A DNA stretch of 64,000 bases from Oscillospiraceae bacterium. Lineage in GTDB: Bacteria > Bacillota > Clostridia > Oscillospirales > Ruminococcaceae. Shown in pieces: positions 23,287 to 60,802 of the stretch (position 1 is the first letter of the stretch; every line of letters starts with the position of its first letter). The translations under genes and the position numbers were made by a program. Below the pieces are notes generated by a model. That model saw only the letters and a program-made list of their open reading frames with translations. It did not search any database and had not been told where the DNA came from. The stretch spans positions 1 through 64,000 of the forward strand of contig JAFTXQ010000013.1 of NCBI GenBank assembly GCA_017461565.1, in the 5' to 3' direction.

Positions 23287-23315
23287 TTGTAAAATCTGAC
23301 GGTTTGTTGTATAAT
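23287..23315 (+). promoter_or_regulatory. Promoter of the SF2-like/GHKL operon
   Basis: TTGTAA (23287-23292), 17 nt, TATAAT (23310-23315), about 88 nt before the first start codon. The leader shows no strong structure. Confidence 0.7.
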
Positions 23316-23402
23316 AGTATCATAGATTGTAATGGGTGAAGTATACTCTTTTTTAAAGATACCCTACATTCATATATTAACCGTTTAACGGAGGTGCGCT
23401 TA

Positions 23403-25355
23403 GTGAGTGAAAACAGCTTAAAATGGATCCCTCTGGGCGGAATGGAACTTTCCGCAGCCAACCTTGCCGCCGCTGAAAAGCTGCGTAAGTTCGGCTTCTC
23501 GCTGATGTTCAGCGAGTTCGGCTCGGAGAAGCTGACAAAGGCGGGGCTTTGTATATATGATGTCCTCGCAGAAAAAGAAAAACCGAACATCCTTCTGATA
23601 ACATCCACATCCGAGCTTTACGGATGGTACAGGATACTTATGACAGGCATCGGCGCTGATTTCAAGATATTCAGCGGCGCTTCAAATGCCATCACCTTCT
23701 TCTCCGAAAACTGTCCCAATCTCTGTCTGATGTCGTCCGAGGCGCTTGCAAAGCAGAGCGGCATAAAGGCAAAGGCAGACAAGGATTTCGTGTGGGATCT
23801 CATCGTTATCGATGAGGAGCAGAGCAGCAAGGTCCCCGACTATGCTTTCTATAAGGAACAGATCCCGTGGAAGGCTGAAAAGCTGCTTATCACTGCACCC
23901 TTCCCCGCAAAGAAGGGCGAAAACAAGGAGGCTCTTGCCGACCTTATAAAGAGCGTTCTGGCTGACCCCGCACTTGCTGCCGAGGCTGACAGCCTTATGT
24001 TCAACAGCGATATGTCAAAGCTTGACGCAGACATACCTGCAATGAGATACTTCGATCAGCGTGTTTACAACGGCAGTATGAAGCGCAATATTCTCTTCCG
24101 TGAATATGAGATGGACGAGGCAAAGCTCACAGGTCTGCGCAGAAGAATGGATCTCCGCTCGGGTCTGCCTGTTTACAAATACGGCGGAAATGTGTTCGAG
24201 GACTACGACTGCGAAATGTACAGGGCTACATACTTCAAGGCTTCCTATACACGTTCGGATGTCGAGGAGCTGAGAGCTTTCGACAAAAAGCTTGACAGCT
24301 TCATCTGTCTGATGGACGACATCATGGCTGAGGGCAAGCGCTCCATCGTTTACTGCTGCGACAAGAACACGATAGATTTCCTCAGAAAGGTGATCTCCTG
24401 CCTGTACGGAAAGAACGTTGTAAAGGTTGCAAAGGGCGAGCTTTTCACAAAGGGCGACATCCTCAGAAAGCTGAATGTGGATGACTCCACCGTGTATCCC
24501 GCTGTTGTGCTCGGCGTTGATAGTCTGGGCGCTGTAGGAGACGCACTCGACCGCATCGATTACATAATAAACTATGAGCTGCCTACGTCCGCAGCACTGC
24601 TGGAAAGACGTATGACACGCCACGGCACAAAGAACGAGGCCGAAAGAAAATTCATCATCTTCTCAGACAAGAACAAACTGTTTGACGCACGTGTGCTTGA
24701 CAAGGCGCTTTACGGAAGCATCGTATCGGGCTTCTGCGGTGCGCTTCCCACCAGAAACATCCTGCTGGATATCGACAGCAAGGGCGATCACCTCTGCAAC
24801 GTATTCGATGACCTTAAGTACGTTGTAAGCTACGCAAATGAGGTAGACAACTGCTTCGACCTCATCAAGAAGTTCAAGGGCGACTACACAGGCTACAACA
24901 CCGAGAAGATAAGCAGCGCAAAGCAGCTGGCAGAGTTTGCAGATAAGCTTCTTACACGTATCTGCAACGCTTTCGGGCTTACCAAGGACTCCACGCACGA
25001 CGATATCAAGGCTGCGATAGATGCGCTCTCGGGTCTGTGCGTGATTAACGACGGCAGACTTGAAAAGGTATCCGACGCTGAGCTTTCCGCTATGAGCGCA
25101 AGCTTCAATGACGAGTCCTGGAAGCAGCTCCCCTTTGCCACAGAAGCTGTAAACGGCGTCGCTGACGCAAAGAAGCATATCGACGAGCTTCACAGCGGCG
25201 AGAACTTCCACCTCAATATAAAGACGGAGCTTTCCGAGCTTGGTGACAGCATCCAGTATCCCGTACTGTTCGGTATCTGGAGATACAGAGTGCGTGAGCA
25301 GGACTCCACAAGATCTTTCAGAGAATACATCAAGATCCACAACGAAGGTATATGA
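23403..25355 (+). CDS. Degenerate SF2/SNF2-like helicase-fold protein, function unknown
   Basis: A 650-residue protein that keeps the outline of a superfamily 2 ATPase but not its chemistry. The expected Walker A region reads GSEKLTKAGLCIYDVL, with no GKT. Then come a motif Ia-like PNILLITSTSELYGWYRIL, a motif II-like DLIVIDEEQSSKV (~131-143) and, in the second RecA half, YPAVVLGVDSLGAVGDALDRI and INYELPTSAALLERRMTRHG (~390-408), which matches motifs V-VI of SNF2 proteins. The C-terminal ~200 residues are helical and unassigned. GTG 23403 follows GGAGG by 8 nt. It is cotranscribed with the GHKL ATPase. The SF2 assignment is my reading of weak motifs. Confidence 0.65.
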   Translation: MSENSLKWIPLGGMELSAANLAAAEKLRKFGFSLMFSEFGSEKLTKAGLCIYDVLAEKEKPNILLITSTSELYGWYRILMTGIGADFKIFSGASNAITFFSENCPNLCLMSSEALAKQSGIKAKADKDFVWDLIVIDEEQSSKVPDYAFYKEQIPWKAEKLLITAPFPAKKGENKEALADLIKSVLADPALAAEADSLMFNSDMSKLDADIPAMRYFDQRVYNGSMKRNILFREYEMDEAKLTGLRRRMDLRSGLPVYKYGGNVFEDYDCEMYRATYFKASYTRSDVEELRAFDKKLDSFICLMDDIMAEGKRSIVYCCDKNTIDFLRKVISCLYGKNVVKVAKGELFTKGDILRKLNVDDSTVYPAVVLGVDSLGAVGDALDRIDYIINYELPTSAALLERRMTRHGTKNEAERKFIIFSDKNKLFDARVLDKALYGSIVSGFCGALPTRNILLDIDSKGDHLCNVFDDLKYVVSYANEVDNCFDLIKKFKGDYTGYNTEKISSAKQLAEFADKLLTRICNAFGLTKDSTHDDIKAAIDALSGLCVINDGRLEKVSDAELSAMSASFNDESWKQLPFATEAVNGVADAKKHIDELHSGENFHLNIKTELSELGDSIQYPVLFGIWRYRVREQDSTRSFREYIKIHNEGI

Positions 25356-25436
25356 CCTCGTAGAATAAAGACCCATCGGCTGGCCGCACGGGGCGGTGGG
25401 TAAAAATCATACAGTGCGGAGAAACGGGGCGTAAAT

Positions 25437-28400
25437 ATGAGCGAAAACTACGAGGTTGTTGAAAAGCTCCTTGGTGACTTTTTTGAGCATCATACCGCTG
25501 GCGACAAAGCCGCCATGTCCGAGGTGCTTCAGAAGCTTCAGATGATGCTTTATTCGGGAGATGTTGACAGCACCCCCTTCAAGGACTATTTCAACAGCAT
25601 GTACACCGGCAGAAGCGCAATAAACTTTACGGGAATGATGCACGACTACCCTCGTGAATCCATCATCCGTGAGCTTCTGCAGAACGTTTTCGGCTGTGAT
25701 TACGAAGAAAATGATATCAAGGTAATGATCGAGTTCCTTGATGAAGGTCAGGTAAAGCTGACATACAACGAGACAGGATTTACACTGGAGCAGGTGTTCT
25801 ATTACCTCTCCGTCGGCAGAAACGACGGCAACACCGAGCGTGAAGGCCGTTTCGGTCTGGGTGCCAAGAGCGTATTTGCGAACGTTGACTGGTTCAAGAT
25901 GCGCTCCAACAACTACTCTCTGCGTGTTGTAAACGACGGCGGTACTCTCAAGGTGCGTGAGCTGGAGCTTAACGGCCCCAAGTTCAACCACACCGAGATC
26001 GTATTCGGCCTTGACGAGGAGAGCCAGAAGAAGCTTCACAGCAACCTTGTTTCCATGTGCGCCGAAAAGGGCGACTACATGAACATGGTGGATCTGTGCT
26101 TTGCGTTCATCCGTAAGAAGCATCTCAAGGCTTCCGATCCCGATGTTACACTCTCACGTACATTCAACATTGCCATCATCAGCTTCGGCAAGCCCGAGGT
26201 GGTATACAAGATCCAGGAGTTCCGCAAGGACGAGAACGACCTGCCCAAGATCCGCTTCTTTGAGAACGGCAAGAGCGTTGCTGACTTCATACACATGGAG
26301 AACGACGGCTTTGTATACCTCATTCCCTTTGCTATCTCAGGCGCAAGACGTGAAGCCGCAAAGGTGCTGATGCAGAAGTACAACTACTTCTCCACATACG
26401 AGCTTACGGGTCTTGTAAAGGCTACCAGCCAGCAGTTCTTACAGGAGCAGCTTTCTGCGTTCTTCGTAAGCGTACCCAACAAGTACATCACAAATAACCG
26501 TGCGGGCATCCGTCACGATTGCATTGAAGAGGTTTCGGGCGAGATCGAAAAGGATATCGTCGAGATCGTAGAACGTTACAAGAAGCTGTTCGTTCTGGAG
26601 CTTGTACAGCGTCCCGACAACGCTTCCCGCTATATGATGCGCCCGAGACAGTATGTTTTCGAGTTCTTCTACAACTACATCCACACCAGCTCCCTTGTAA
26701 AGGGACTTAAGGAGCAGTTCTGCGACAACATCTCGCTGAAGCTGCCCAATATCGAGGAGCCTGTTACATTCACAGAGCTTAAGCAGAACGGCTTCTTTAC
26801 CGAGCACAGCGGCATCTCCAAGGAGGAGCATGACGACGGAACAGCTATGCAGCTTCTGTATAACGACCTCGATCAGATGGAAGCCTGGTTCAAGGGCGAG
26901 GAGAACCACGTTCTGTTCGCAAAGTACAACTGGCACGAGCAGGCTACCGATGAGAGCGGCAGCGAGTATGTATATGCGTTCCACGAGAACGATGAGGTAT
27001 ACCTCATGTCCTCGGATAAGAACAGACAGATCCGTGACTACGATCTGTACGACGGCTTCAAGAACATCATCAGCCTTAAGCTCAATAACTGTGTTGTTGA
27101 TGGTGCCGTTGCGGATGAAAATGCCCTCGCTGAGGCGTTTGAGGTCATTGACGAGATGTTCGGCGAAAGCTACCGCATCTCCATGAAGTACTTCCAGTTT
27201 GTCATCACCTCAGGCGGAACCACCATCCAGTTTGAGGTATCCAAGATCAACATCGGCAACCTCAAGAAGGCGATGGATGTTATTTCGGCTCACGAGATGC
27301 GTTTCGAGAACCATCAGGTATACAACTCCGTTGTAACGCTGATAATGAACAGCTTCACAAACGGCAAGGATACCATGGACTTCCTGCGTGAGATAAAGAG
27401 CCAGGGCGGCGAGGTAACTCTCGCACTGGATATCAACAAGCGTTACCGTTTTGCTGCATACGGAAAGCAGTTCATGATCCCGCCGAACGTAACCAACGCA
27501 GACCTGCTTGAAGTGATCGGTGATGTTTATGTGCTTATCGACAGCGGTATGTTCAACAACCGTGTGTTCGACTTCCCGTTCTCTGCAGGAAGATACAGCT
27601 TTGATACCGATGAGATAGTTGCAGCACTGCCTGAGTGCGGTACGGCAGCAGATGTTGAGGAGATGCTCTCCAAGATCTATGTGTGCGACCTTGCACTTGA
27701 CAAGATCGCTCTGCTCGACGCTAACAACAAGCTGCTGAAGATCGTTGATATCGTTGAGCCTATCGCAGACGCAGACAAGGCTAAGACCGCAAAGTACGTT
27801 GTTCTGCGTGAGGCAGCAGGAAAGCCGCAGTTCGCAAAGTTTGTAGAGTTCCTGCTGACAGGCAAGAACCAGCAGGTGCTTGCAGCGCTGTACTCCAGCA
27901 CTGAGGAGCCTAATGTAGTTCTGCTTGACCAGATCCCCTATTACTACAAGCCCGTTCCTACCATCCGCAAGGATGAGTTCGGCTTCCTGCGCGGCGAGGT
28001 TCGCCGTATCTCGGGAATCAAGAACCCCAGAGTTTACAAGAACTACTTCGCACGTGACATCAATGCAAAGCTTTACGGCTACGGCGGTATCTGCCAGTGC
28101 TGCGGTCACGAGTCCGATGTTATCAACGGCTTTACGCTCAAGAGCTTCTCTATCGGTCTTCTGAACGGTGAGAAGGAGCAGAAGTTCAACTTCTCGCTGT
28201 ACCTGTGCGCTAACGACAGCTACAATGCAGGCGGCTGGATAATCGACGATGTTTCCATCGGCGGAATGAGTCCGTTCCTGTGGCTGGATGAGATCGCTAT
28301 GATTGACTATATCCCGCCGGAGTTCCTGTACTGCCGCATCAAGTACCGTCCTCAGGTGACTTATGATATATGCGAGGCTACAGCGGAGTCCGAGAACGCA

Positions 28401-28496
28401 GTTGCAGAGAATATCTACGACGGCGCTCAGGAGACGCTCGACATCATCCTTTCTCCGATGATGGCTGCAAAATGGGTAGAGGACAACAGAAAGTGA
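25437..28496 (+). CDS. Large sacsin/Hsp90-type GHKL ATPase with C-terminal Cys cluster
   Basis: 1019 residues. The N-terminal GHKL ATP site is recognisable: N-box RESIIRELLQNVFG (Asn ~83), G1 region LTYNETGFTLEQVFYYLSVGRN (~108-129) and G2 lid EGRFGLGAKSVF (~136-147). This matches sacsin-like, NO VEIN-type and MORC-type ATPases better than histidine kinases or GyrB. A long middle of unknown fold follows. Near residue 886 is ICQCCGHES, paired with a lone Cys in LYLCANDSYN, like a decayed treble-clef zinc site. No nuclease or methylase motif is seen. Codon use is strongly host-like. It forms an operon with the SF2-like gene (81-bp gap). Confidence 0.75.
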   Translation: MSENYEVVEKLLGDFFEHHTAGDKAAMSEVLQKLQMMLYSGDVDSTPFKDYFNSMYTGRSAINFTGMMHDYPRESIIRELLQNVFGCDYEENDIKVMIEFLDEGQVKLTYNETGFTLEQVFYYLSVGRNDGNTEREGRFGLGAKSVFANVDWFKMRSNNYSLRVVNDGGTLKVRELELNGPKFNHTEIVFGLDEESQKKLHSNLVSMCAEKGDYMNMVDLCFAFIRKKHLKASDPDVTLSRTFNIAIISFGKPEVVYKIQEFRKDENDLPKIRFFENGKSVADFIHMENDGFVYLIPFAISGARREAAKVLMQKYNYFSTYELTGLVKATSQQFLQEQLSAFFVSVPNKYITNNRAGIRHDCIEEVSGEIEKDIVEIVERYKKLFVLELVQRPDNASRYMMRPRQYVFEFFYNYIHTSSLVKGLKEQFCDNISLKLPNIEEPVTFTELKQNGFFTEHSGISKEEHDDGTAMQLLYNDLDQMEAWFKGEENHVLFAKYNWHEQATDESGSEYVYAFHENDEVYLMSSDKNRQIRDYDLYDGFKNIISLKLNNCVVDGAVADENALAEAFEVIDEMFGESYRISMKYFQFVITSGGTTIQFEVSKINIGNLKKAMDVISAHEMRFENHQVYNSVVTLIMNSFTNGKDTMDFLREIKSQGGEVTLALDINKRYRFAAYGKQFMIPPNVTNADLLEVIGDVYVLIDSGMFNNRVFDFPFSAGRYSFDTDEIVAALPECGTAADVEEMLSKIYVCDLALDKIALLDANNKLLKIVDIVEPIADADKAKTAKYVVLREAAGKPQFAKFVEFLLTGKNQQVLAALYSSTEEPNVVLLDQIPYYYKPVPTIRKDEFGFLRGEVRRISGIKNPRVYKNYFARDINAKLYGYGGICQCCGHESDVINGFTLKSFSIGLLNGEKEQKFNFSLYLCANDSYNAGGWIIDDVSIGGMSPFLWLDEIAMIDYIPPEFLYCRIKYRPQVTYDICEATAESENAVAENIYDGAQETLDIILSPMMAAKWVEDNRK

Positions 28497-28538
28497 TAAG
28501 CTTCTGTCATATATACCGCATATAAGTATAAAACGGCT

Positions 28539-28575
28539 AAACCGCTTCTGATCGTTCAGAGGCGGTTTATTGTTT
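28539..28575 (+). terminator. Terminator of the SF2-like/GHKL operon
   Basis: Stem AAACCGCTTCTGA / TCAGAGGCGGTTT followed by ATTGTTTATT. Confidence 0.88.
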
Positions 28576-42382: not shown

Positions 42383-42411
42383 TTGACAAATCGTTTTCGA
42401 TGTGTTATACT
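42383..42411 (+). promoter_or_regulatory. Promoter of rplJL
   Basis: TTGACA (42383-42388), 17 nt, TATACT (42406-42411). Confidence 0.88.
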
Positions 42412-42560
42412 GTTTATGCTGTTCTAAAGACAGCAGGTTGCCGCAAGGCTATAATGGTTAGTCCGCCTGCCGAGGAATGGGAATTGAAATCAGATTTCTG
42501 CGTTCCTTTCTGTCTTTGTTCAGAGAGGGATTTTTTATTTTCCGTGCTTTGAAACAGCGT
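42412..42560 (+). promoter_or_regulatory. Ribosomal L10 leader RNA
   Basis: The leader between the rplJL promoter and rplJ has the L10-leader pattern: GTTCTAAAGACAGCAGGT, GCAAGGCTATAATGGTTA, CCGCCTGCCGAGG, and a later hairpin with GGGATTTTTTATTTT. In Bacteria the L10(L12)4 complex binds this kink-turn structure and represses its own operon. Assignment is from position and motif memory; a covariance search would settle the borders. Confidence 0.85.
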
Positions 42561-60657: not shown

Positions 60658-60692
60658 GCAAAAATGTTCTTTTTGAGAGACAAATTTGTTCT

Positions 60693-60802
60693 GATTCTTT
60701 CATCCGGACTATACCGTCGGTATGGGAATCTCACCCATTCAACCATAAAGGCTCGCGGACTATACCGCCGGTGGGGAATCGCACCCCGCCCCGAATCTTT
60801 TT
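60693..60802 (-). promoter_or_regulatory. FMN riboswitch (RFN element)
   Basis: Minus strand shows the full RFN core in order: ATTCGGGGCGGGGTGCGATT, CCCCACCGGCGGTATAGTCC, GCGAGC, GGTTGAATGGGTGAGATTCC and CATACCGACGGTATAGTCCG, closed by GATTC/GAATC at the base. It senses FMN and should switch off ribU when flavin is ample. Confidence 0.97.

Follow-up and report, generated by a model that had tools for sequence, protein, structure and literature searches.

Two adjacent genes, here called A and B, lie within a 64,000-nucleotide stretch of a gut Oscillospiraceae bacterium (GCA_017461565.1, contig JAFTXQ010000013.1, positions 1 to 64,000; hereafter the window) and encode what we read as a domesticated pair of an SNF2-like protein and a sacsin-type GHKL protein. 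Judged from sequence, A retains an SF2 scaffold whose ATPase site is eroded, and B keeps its GHKL ATP-binding motifs, so that A may be an ATPase-dead partner and B the switch of the module; for this reading as a whole the balance stands about even. The two genes form a plus-strand unit, A (23403-25355) followed by B (25437-28496), with a promoter-like site 5' and a terminator-like site 3', and their strand, order, and the motifs quoted in the original prediction, a reading of the letters of the window, are all present in the sequence:

23403..25355, + strand: gene A, degenerate SF2/SNF2-like protein of 650 aa, identified by profile matches; GTG start, Shine-Dalgarno (SD) sequence GGAGG 8 nt upstream
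23520..23537, + strand: Walker A relic GSEKLT, A residues 40-45; G40 and K43 in 47/47
23805..23822, + strand: motif II VIDEEQ, A residues 135-140; D137 in 47/47
24600..24626, + strand: motif VI remnant LERRMTRHG, A residues 400-408; R403 and R406 in 47/47
25437..28496, + strand: gene B, sacsin-type GHKL protein of 1019 aa; NCBIfam NF047352 E 1.6e-5, below cut-off
25671..25685, + strand: ELLQN (B residues 79-83) of the N-box RELLQN (78-83); E79, L80, Q82, and N83 in 48/48
25764..25781, + strand: G1 box YNETGF, B residues 110-115; Y110, N111, E112, G114, and F115 in 48/48
25839..25877, + strand: G2 box REGRFGLGAKSVF, B residues 135-147; 11 of 13 positions in 48/48, A143 in 47/48, L or V at 141
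28092..28208, + strand: C-terminal cysteine cluster of B, CxxC (886, 889) plus C924; candidate zinc ribbon with the fourth cysteine missing

The start of gene A is most likely the GTG at 23403 (SD GGAGG, 23390-23394) and not the mechanical start at 23394. Neither A nor B reaches a Pfam or NCBIfam cut-off, and Pfam Helicase_C scores 14.3 bits on A against a cut-off of 23.5. Profile comparison nevertheless agrees with the SF2/SNF2-like and GHKL assignments made earlier. The A family profile matches the RecA lobes of solved SF2 proteins in the PDB (MJ0669, E 4.2e-6; RapA, 1.4e-4; SNF2/Rad54 1z63, 4.9e-3), which would agree with a RecA-like fold, and both RecA lobes are covered by its matches to the SNF2 proteins of the intact pair described below (hhalign E 8e-19 over 353 columns). 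Among the PADLOC models, HmaA is the best match of window A (2.3e-7), with DrmD at 1.8e-4, and 30 of 33 members of the A alignment match HmaA and as many DrmD (PDLC02623) at E<=1e-3; all of these matches are confined to the common helicase/SNF2 core.

K43, D137, R403, and R406 are invariant in 47 full-length A sequences, the window included; loci with a split or partial gene A (L013, L036) were left out of the motif counts. The Walker A relic sits where the intact relative has GTGKT, and LERRMTRHG aligns with LEQRFGRIER or LEQRFGRIDR of the intact SNF2 relatives, whose motif III TATP and second motif VI arginine are not kept in A. GK[ST] and D[ED] are intact together in none of the 47: 32 have D[ED] without GK[ST], 7 have GK[ST] without the acidic residue after D137, and 8 have neither. 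The 15 sequences in which that acidic residue is absent (7 plus 8) make up a distant clade. In the clade of the window the glycine before the lysine and the threonine or serine after it are gone, and window A itself has lost Walker A and kept motif II. The A protein of G015, which stands outside the 47, reads GNDKHG and VDGG and has glutamine at position 406. The original prediction that A had lost Walker A is thus right for GK[ST] in the window, but the motif is not simply absent, since a relic with G40 and K43 persists in every sequence, and a simple loss of Walker A does not describe the family, in which both Walker motifs erode in a lineage-dependent manner. Because different Walker halves have eroded in different lineages and the length of all 47 proteins stays at 645-659 aa, the motor appears to have been lost along different routes under a constrained reading frame.

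In B, the N-box ExxxN and the G1 and G2 glycine motifs occur in order in 48/48 sequences, a set that includes the window and one contig-cut relative and leaves out L040 and at least three contig-end loci. Window B scores 25.2 bits with NF047352, below the curated cut-off of 50; in alignment A2, 33 of the 34 sequences match the model at E<=1e-3 (best 1.3e-6), and Pfam SACS gives 0.058 on B. The sacsin-type ATP domain is the sole family match of B at E<=1e-3. No further sacsin domain and no J or HEPN domain was found among the Pfam matches, no effector domain was recognised in the family scans of A and B, and the B profile matched no solved structure at E<=1. Invariant positions make up 46% of residues 70-160, 18% of 161-860, and 10% of 861-950. 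The G1 pattern Y-N-E-x-G-F is one that we take to be sacsin-like; the MORC side of the proposed sacsin/NO VEIN/MORC kinship is not supported, as no MORC-specific match was seen. Nor is B "giant," having 1019 aa against the 4579 aa given for sacsin in a published abstract.

The decayed zinc site foreseen for B is borne out: C886 and C889 occur in 48/48 and C924 in 47/48, the exception being cut by a contig end, and no fourth cysteine is in place. Intact relatives carry CxxC...CxxC near the C terminus, and at profile level they match the cluster of B weakly (11 columns, E 0.001, Prob 22). In 25 of 47 loci B is longer than 1045 aa, up to 1159 aa; in these near-clade relatives a Pro/Ala-rich tail follows AAKWxEDN (e.g., L012:11055-11276 and L016:5267-5644) and in several cases repeats a motif like TPRYPAPEGVxPR; window B is without that tail, and both alignment A2 and the B motif alignment trim the C-terminal tails of longer relatives. 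At L040:7968-11342 (UBA5579) B is read as two ORFs, and G582:C71 is similar, which reflects either an assembly error or a real break.

The closest relative found for A-B is, by profile comparison, an SNF2 plus GHKL pair with intact helicase motifs. When 43 genomes of the window's genus were searched, each of the two profiles, A and B, gave exactly one non-orthologous match; these lie side by side in G598 and form an extra copy (L081:7063-12863) beside the core A-B pair of that genome. This copy consists of a gene for an 816-aa SNF2 protein (Walker A, DECH, TATP, and motif VI) and, with a 4-nt overlap, one for a 1117-aa sacsin-type GHKL protein. A second intact pair lies on plasmid pFN9B of Lysinibacillus capsici (NZ_CP106864.1; L086:6398-12081), with 5 bp from stop to start and with a PD-(D/E)XK protein, a UvrD helicase, an integrase, and an Eco57I-type methylase as neighbours. 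Both resemble A-B in gene order, strand, tight spacing, homologous SF2 and GHKL ATP sites, and C-terminal cysteine pairs. In contrast to A-B, their SF2 partner has a full Walker A (GTGKT/GTGKS), DECH or DEAH, TATP, and motif VI; the intact pairs sit on a plasmid or as an extra copy, and they leave no space for an intergenic RNA element.

The homology of B to the intact GHKL proteins reaches E 1.5e-6 over the ATP site, and 1.5e-9 when the profile is trimmed to residues 60-215. Homology beyond the RecA and GHKL cores was considered and set aside as not significant, a common PxRN motif being seen by eye only. In the reverse direction, the intact GHKL profile gave eight matches in 295 genomes of the order, namely, the B loci of G000 and G094 and six g16 loci, all six with A and B. 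No intact pair was found in viral contigs, and the intact GHKL protein had no match in phage records and a match on one plasmid. The Lysinibacillus GHKL domain matches PADLOC TmtA at 2.6e-8. The stretch L086:192-18594 of pFN9B, with its cluster of nuclease, helicase, SNF2, GHKL, integrase, and methylase genes, may be an unnamed defence island.

Profile searches placed B in 41 and A in 40 of the 43 genus genomes, and each gene in 27/27 of those with completeness of >=90% and contamination of <=5%. The genomes without B are G586 (83% complete) and G602 (69%); since G586 consists of only about 10 contigs, a real loss of B is possible there. None of the 43 showed a second ortholog of A or B. Beyond the genus, few genomes carry the pair: the 197 genomes of the family gave seven B matches, six of which (own genome included) fall in three genera, so that 6/197 family genomes carry the pair with the window's own genus counted, and the 391 genomes of the class gave two, one in the own genome and one in G015, likewise of this family. 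The B match in G165 (E 8.8e-4) contains two internal stops and has no sacsin-type GHKL motif in the stretch, and it was taken as chance; likewise, no such motif was present in the stretches fetched for other SF2 matches in the family (G055, G018) or for a weak B-like match in G200.

Linkage is as tight as the original prediction supposed. A scan of genome contigs gave 52 loci, with A directly upstream of B in 48 and the contig ending inside B in the other four (L029, L034, L057, L059); no neighbourhood with the two genes unlinked was met. Adjacency extends to six checked g16 loci, one of which (G132) was known before. A and B are separated by 1-2 bp in 15 distant-clade loci and in L037, and by about 70-170 bp in the clade of the window. 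A phage or plasmid origin of the window pair was considered and rejected: relatives were absent from plasmids, and none of 159 pattern matches in viral contigs was a relative. One record labelled as a bacteriophage (MT835670.1, L082) holds an A-B pair; no phage genes were recognised from its ORFs, and it looks bacterial.

These genomes point to vertical inheritance of the pair within its genus, as had been proposed, and to purifying selection on both genes, which stay adjacent. Trees of A, B, and polynucleotide phosphorylase (PNPase) for 20 genomes have 13/17 splits in common between A and B, 11/17 between B and PNPase, and 10/17 between A and PNPase, and no conflict arises between splits with support of >=0.9. 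Five of 25 genomes (G612, G600, G599, G583, G099) had no usable PNPase and were excluded, and the PNPase of G597 is partial in the tree. dN/dS values (NG86, 14 locus pairs) are 0.047-0.179 for A and 0.028-0.150 for B, ratios that are rough where dS exceeds 1, as it does in several pairs. Among 18 genus members, A differs by a mean of 43% at the amino acid level, B by 28%, and PNPase by 8%, and the distances of A and B remain correlated after removal of PNPase (partial r 0.80). With rplI, rpsO, pnp, and partial dnaK as reference, B has a codon adaptation index (CAI) of 0.573 and A one of 0.500, the top two of the 19 non-reference window genes chosen for the test; this supports the optimised codons noted earlier, and codon usage suggests abundance of both products.

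A covarying RNA helix beside the ribosome-binding site of B is new, being absent from the earlier reading of the window, and it is perhaps part of a pseudoknot:

25372..25419, + strand: candidate H-type pseudoknot RNA, from covariation and arm-swap permutation
25372-25378 and 25394-25400, + strand: arms of helix S1, CCCATCG and CGGTGGG
25384-25389 and 25414-25419, + strand: arms of helix S2, CCGCAC and GTGCGG
25426..25429, + strand: probable Shine-Dalgarno GGGG of B, beginning 7 nt downstream of S2, in a conserved GAGAAAYGRGG-like stretch (alignment A5)

In the S2 consensus, CCGYRC pairs with GYRCGG directly 5' of the B ribosome-binding site. The 32 intergenic stretches of the window's clade contain the tail anchor in 29 cases (not in L016, L033, and L052) and also the 5' arm in 28 (not in L031); the 5' arm was chosen by a motif written after the sequences had been viewed, and its choice is therefore not independent of the pairing. 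In S2, 98.1% of cells are paired (shuffles, 93.0%; slid controls, 18.5-58.6%), and cells with two-sided changes number 11 against 3.6 in shuffles, a value reached by 0 of 500. Three of the six pairs show two-sided change (1.3 in shuffles; 21/500), and there are five further pair types (4.4 in shuffles; 170/500). The swapped-arm permutation gives p 2e-4 for S2 (n=21). In sequences with longer spacers, the S2 5' arm lies within the loop of the variable hairpin S1, a geometry from which we infer an H-type pseudoknot. For S1, the mean is -12.3 kcal/mol when a sequence pairs with its own arm and -7.5 when arms are swapped (permutation p 2e-4, 18 dereplicated sequences); the window beats every swap (0/17 as good), and L013, L018, and L019 are only average. 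Such arm swaps leave the kinship between sequences in place. Six loci (L024, L026, L027, L030, L032, L055) have a short hairpin only, with 10-12 nt between the arms. None of 4227 Rfam models matched the intergenic element at gathering score or at E<=5, and the exact window pattern occurs once in its own genome and its reversed control 0 times. By minimum energy, the intergenic stretch folds no better than shuffles do (z -0.34), and the best fold is not S2; the case for the RNA rests on covariation.

The promoter and terminator of the original prediction were found as consensus matches only:

23287..23315, + strand: promoter-like site of the A-B operon, TTGTAA-17-TATAAT
28538..28569, + strand: terminator-like hairpin with T-rich tail, 3' of B

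The consensus scan gave 10 promoter-like sites in the region, where shuffles average 4.5, and terminator-like sites are not above shuffles (4 versus 4.8). Ten flanking window ORFs were compared with Pfam. Upstream are RNase J, SpoIVB peptidase, a class-V aminotransferase, an FGGY kinase, and a class II aldolase; downstream of B are PNPase, ribosomal S15, an Rce1-like peptidase, and two HTH proteins. None of these ten is a restriction-type nuclease or methylase, in agreement with the earlier reading, and no restriction nuclease or methylase occurs among 10 recurrent neighbour proteins scanned at related loci, one of which had no match at all. The neighbours in the window and the recurrent neighbours at related loci are of a housekeeping kind. 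Flanks vary by subclade, with Rnf-complex genes downstream in 20 loci and a class II tRNA synthetase gene upstream in six distant-clade loci. Elsewhere in the window are an ordinary FMN riboswitch (60688-60802, - strand, 108.6 bits) and an ordinary L10 leader (42406-42545, + strand, 55.6 bits).

No published account of the A-B pair was recognised among the results of our literature search. Among the known systems closest to it are the MORC/paraMORC operons of PMC2292703, in which a GHKL gene stands beside an SFII helicase gene, of the SWI2/SNF2 kind in type 2; about 70% of MORC neighbourhoods contain an SFII helicase gene, SWI2/SNF2 types included. Those operons include nucleases, often methylases, and are laterally mobile, whereas A-B has neither among its scanned neighbours, is vertical in its genus, and with 27/27 good genomes lacks their sporadic distribution. 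A-B also differs in its eroded helicase and sacsin-like G1 box. Sacsin has no occurrence in the available text of PMC2292703. B was not assigned to MORC in view of the missing MORC-specific match, the G1 box that we assume to be sacsin-like, and the NF047352 match. B resembles sacsin and the bacterial NF047352 proteins in the order of N-box, G1, and G2, and differs from them in its score below cut-off and in having no other sacsin domain matched.

HmaA, the best PADLOC match of A, is the helicase of the candidate defence system Hma (PMC8565338), which combines it with the methylase HmaB and with HmaC; A-B has no methylase among its scanned neighbours, the HmaA match covers only the SNF2 core, and B is matched by no Hma model. 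Membership in Hma, DISARM, or Dpd was accordingly rejected, the matches being to the common helicase core only. Window B matches TmtA of PADLOC at 0.0074, over about 80 residues of a model of 1370-1486 positions, and an SNF2 partner is not described for TmtA (presumably Tiamat) in the material examined. VcSduA, a Shedu protein with a GHKL domain (PMC12137116), is likewise a GHKL ATPase in phage defence; unlike A-B, it is a single protein with a PD-(D/E)xK nuclease domain and no SF2 partner. The inactive Swi2/Snf2 domains of PglZ and DndH (PMC12839542, PMC10853773) have lost ATPase motifs as A has and are proposed nucleic-acid binders. They consist of one second RecA lobe inside a larger protein, whereas A has both lobes, is separate, and is paired with a GHKL protein.

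GHKL proteins such as MutL, Hsp90, and MORC close as clamps in an ATP-dependent manner. On a model based on such enzymes, for which PMC2292703 was also drawn upon, A and B would form a stoichiometric complex in which A, probably a nucleic-acid-binding partner, acts in a static positioning role, perhaps binding nucleotide through K43, D137, and R403. ATP binding would close the B dimer over its substrate, the closed form would remodel or hold DNA or a nucleoprotein, and hydrolysis by B would reset the clamp. Since nuclease and methylase are absent among the scanned neighbours, the complex would no longer restrict DNA and may instead serve housekeeping, with chromosome organisation, silencing, or repair as candidate roles. 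In the window's clade, the RNA structure next to the B ribosome-binding site would probably gate translation of B; in the distant clade, the 1-2 nt gap would probably couple translation of B to that of A. Of the parts of this reading, domestication is well favoured and we consider it likely; the DNA clamp is tentative, falling short of an even case.

Several observations weigh against domestication into a DNA clamp. The intact relative is known from two places only, its apparent defence role comes from the one plasmid neighbourhood, and the copy at L081 is flanked by large surface-type ORFs (ORF reading) with no clear defence island; we infer the direction from intact to eroded. The middle of B (195-860) and the C-terminal part of A (405-650) have no significant match to the intact pair, and the reverse search with the intact GHKL profile missed G015, which carries A-B. 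A evolves fast, which is not what one usually sees in a housekeeping component, and most tree rows hold a partial A (about residues 175-650; 431-650 in G587). The CAI rests on four reference genes. Finally, both proteins are acidic (mean pI 5.2 for A and 5.1 for B), which gives no support for strong DNA binding.

That fast evolution would suit a pair that has become fixed in the genus and continues to act against phages or plasmids, with A as a dead DNA sensor and B as an ATP-driven effector or signal transducer. The matches of most A alignment members to the defence helicases HmaA and DrmD, the intact pair on a plasmid beside nuclease, helicase, and methylase genes, and the nucleic-acid binding proposed for the inactive domains of PglZ and DndH point the same way. 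The PADLOC matches are those of shared helicase cores, however, no effector domain was recognised, and the neighbours are housekeeping genes. The presence of A-B in 27/27 good genus genomes argues against an ordinary patchy defence system, as do vertical inheritance and the lack of a second ortholog in 43 genomes, and we regard continued defence as the strongest rival and still unlikely. Acidity of both proteins and a codon usage suggestive of abundance would fit a sacsin/Hsp90-like chaperone, in which B would fold or disaggregate protein or ribonucleoprotein clients and A would be an RNA- or client-binding cofactor. It is the sacsin-type ATP domain alone that matches B at E<=1e-3, and the Hsp90-like domains of sacsin have been argued to be ATP driven (PMC9880540). 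Against this, B has no J or HEPN domain among its Pfam matches, its partner is helicase derived in both clades examined, and the intact relatives carry a full SNF2 motor, which makes a chaperone less likely still than defence. That A is a working ATPase or translocase with a noncanonical site would explain the identity of K43, D137, R403, and R406 in 47/47 and the VIDEEQ retained in window A; with GK[ST] and D[ED] together in 0/47, and with TATP and the second motif VI arginine of the intact relatives not kept, this is highly improbable.

The preferred reading of A-B as a domesticated module can be extended, as a speculation of low probability, to a core MORC-like DNA clamp derived from a mobile SNF2-GHKL defence module: a motor-dead SNF2 protein would place a live GHKL clamp on the chromosome, where it compacts or silences DNA, and the new RNA pseudoknot, possibly bound by the complex, would control translation of the GHKL gene. 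An origin of eukaryotic MORC from restriction-linked bacterial GHKL operons has been proposed, and some members of the MORC family were perhaps recruited outside restriction (PMC2292703); A-B would be a candidate for such a recruitment of GHKL proteins within bacteria. Within one genus, the eroded core form occurs alongside one whose motifs are intact, and the two routes of ATPase loss, with K43, D137, R403, and R406 kept, offer a testable case of the passage from helicase to static partner. If true, this history would run parallel, within bacteria, to the path from restriction-linked systems that has been proposed for the eukaryotic MORC silencers.

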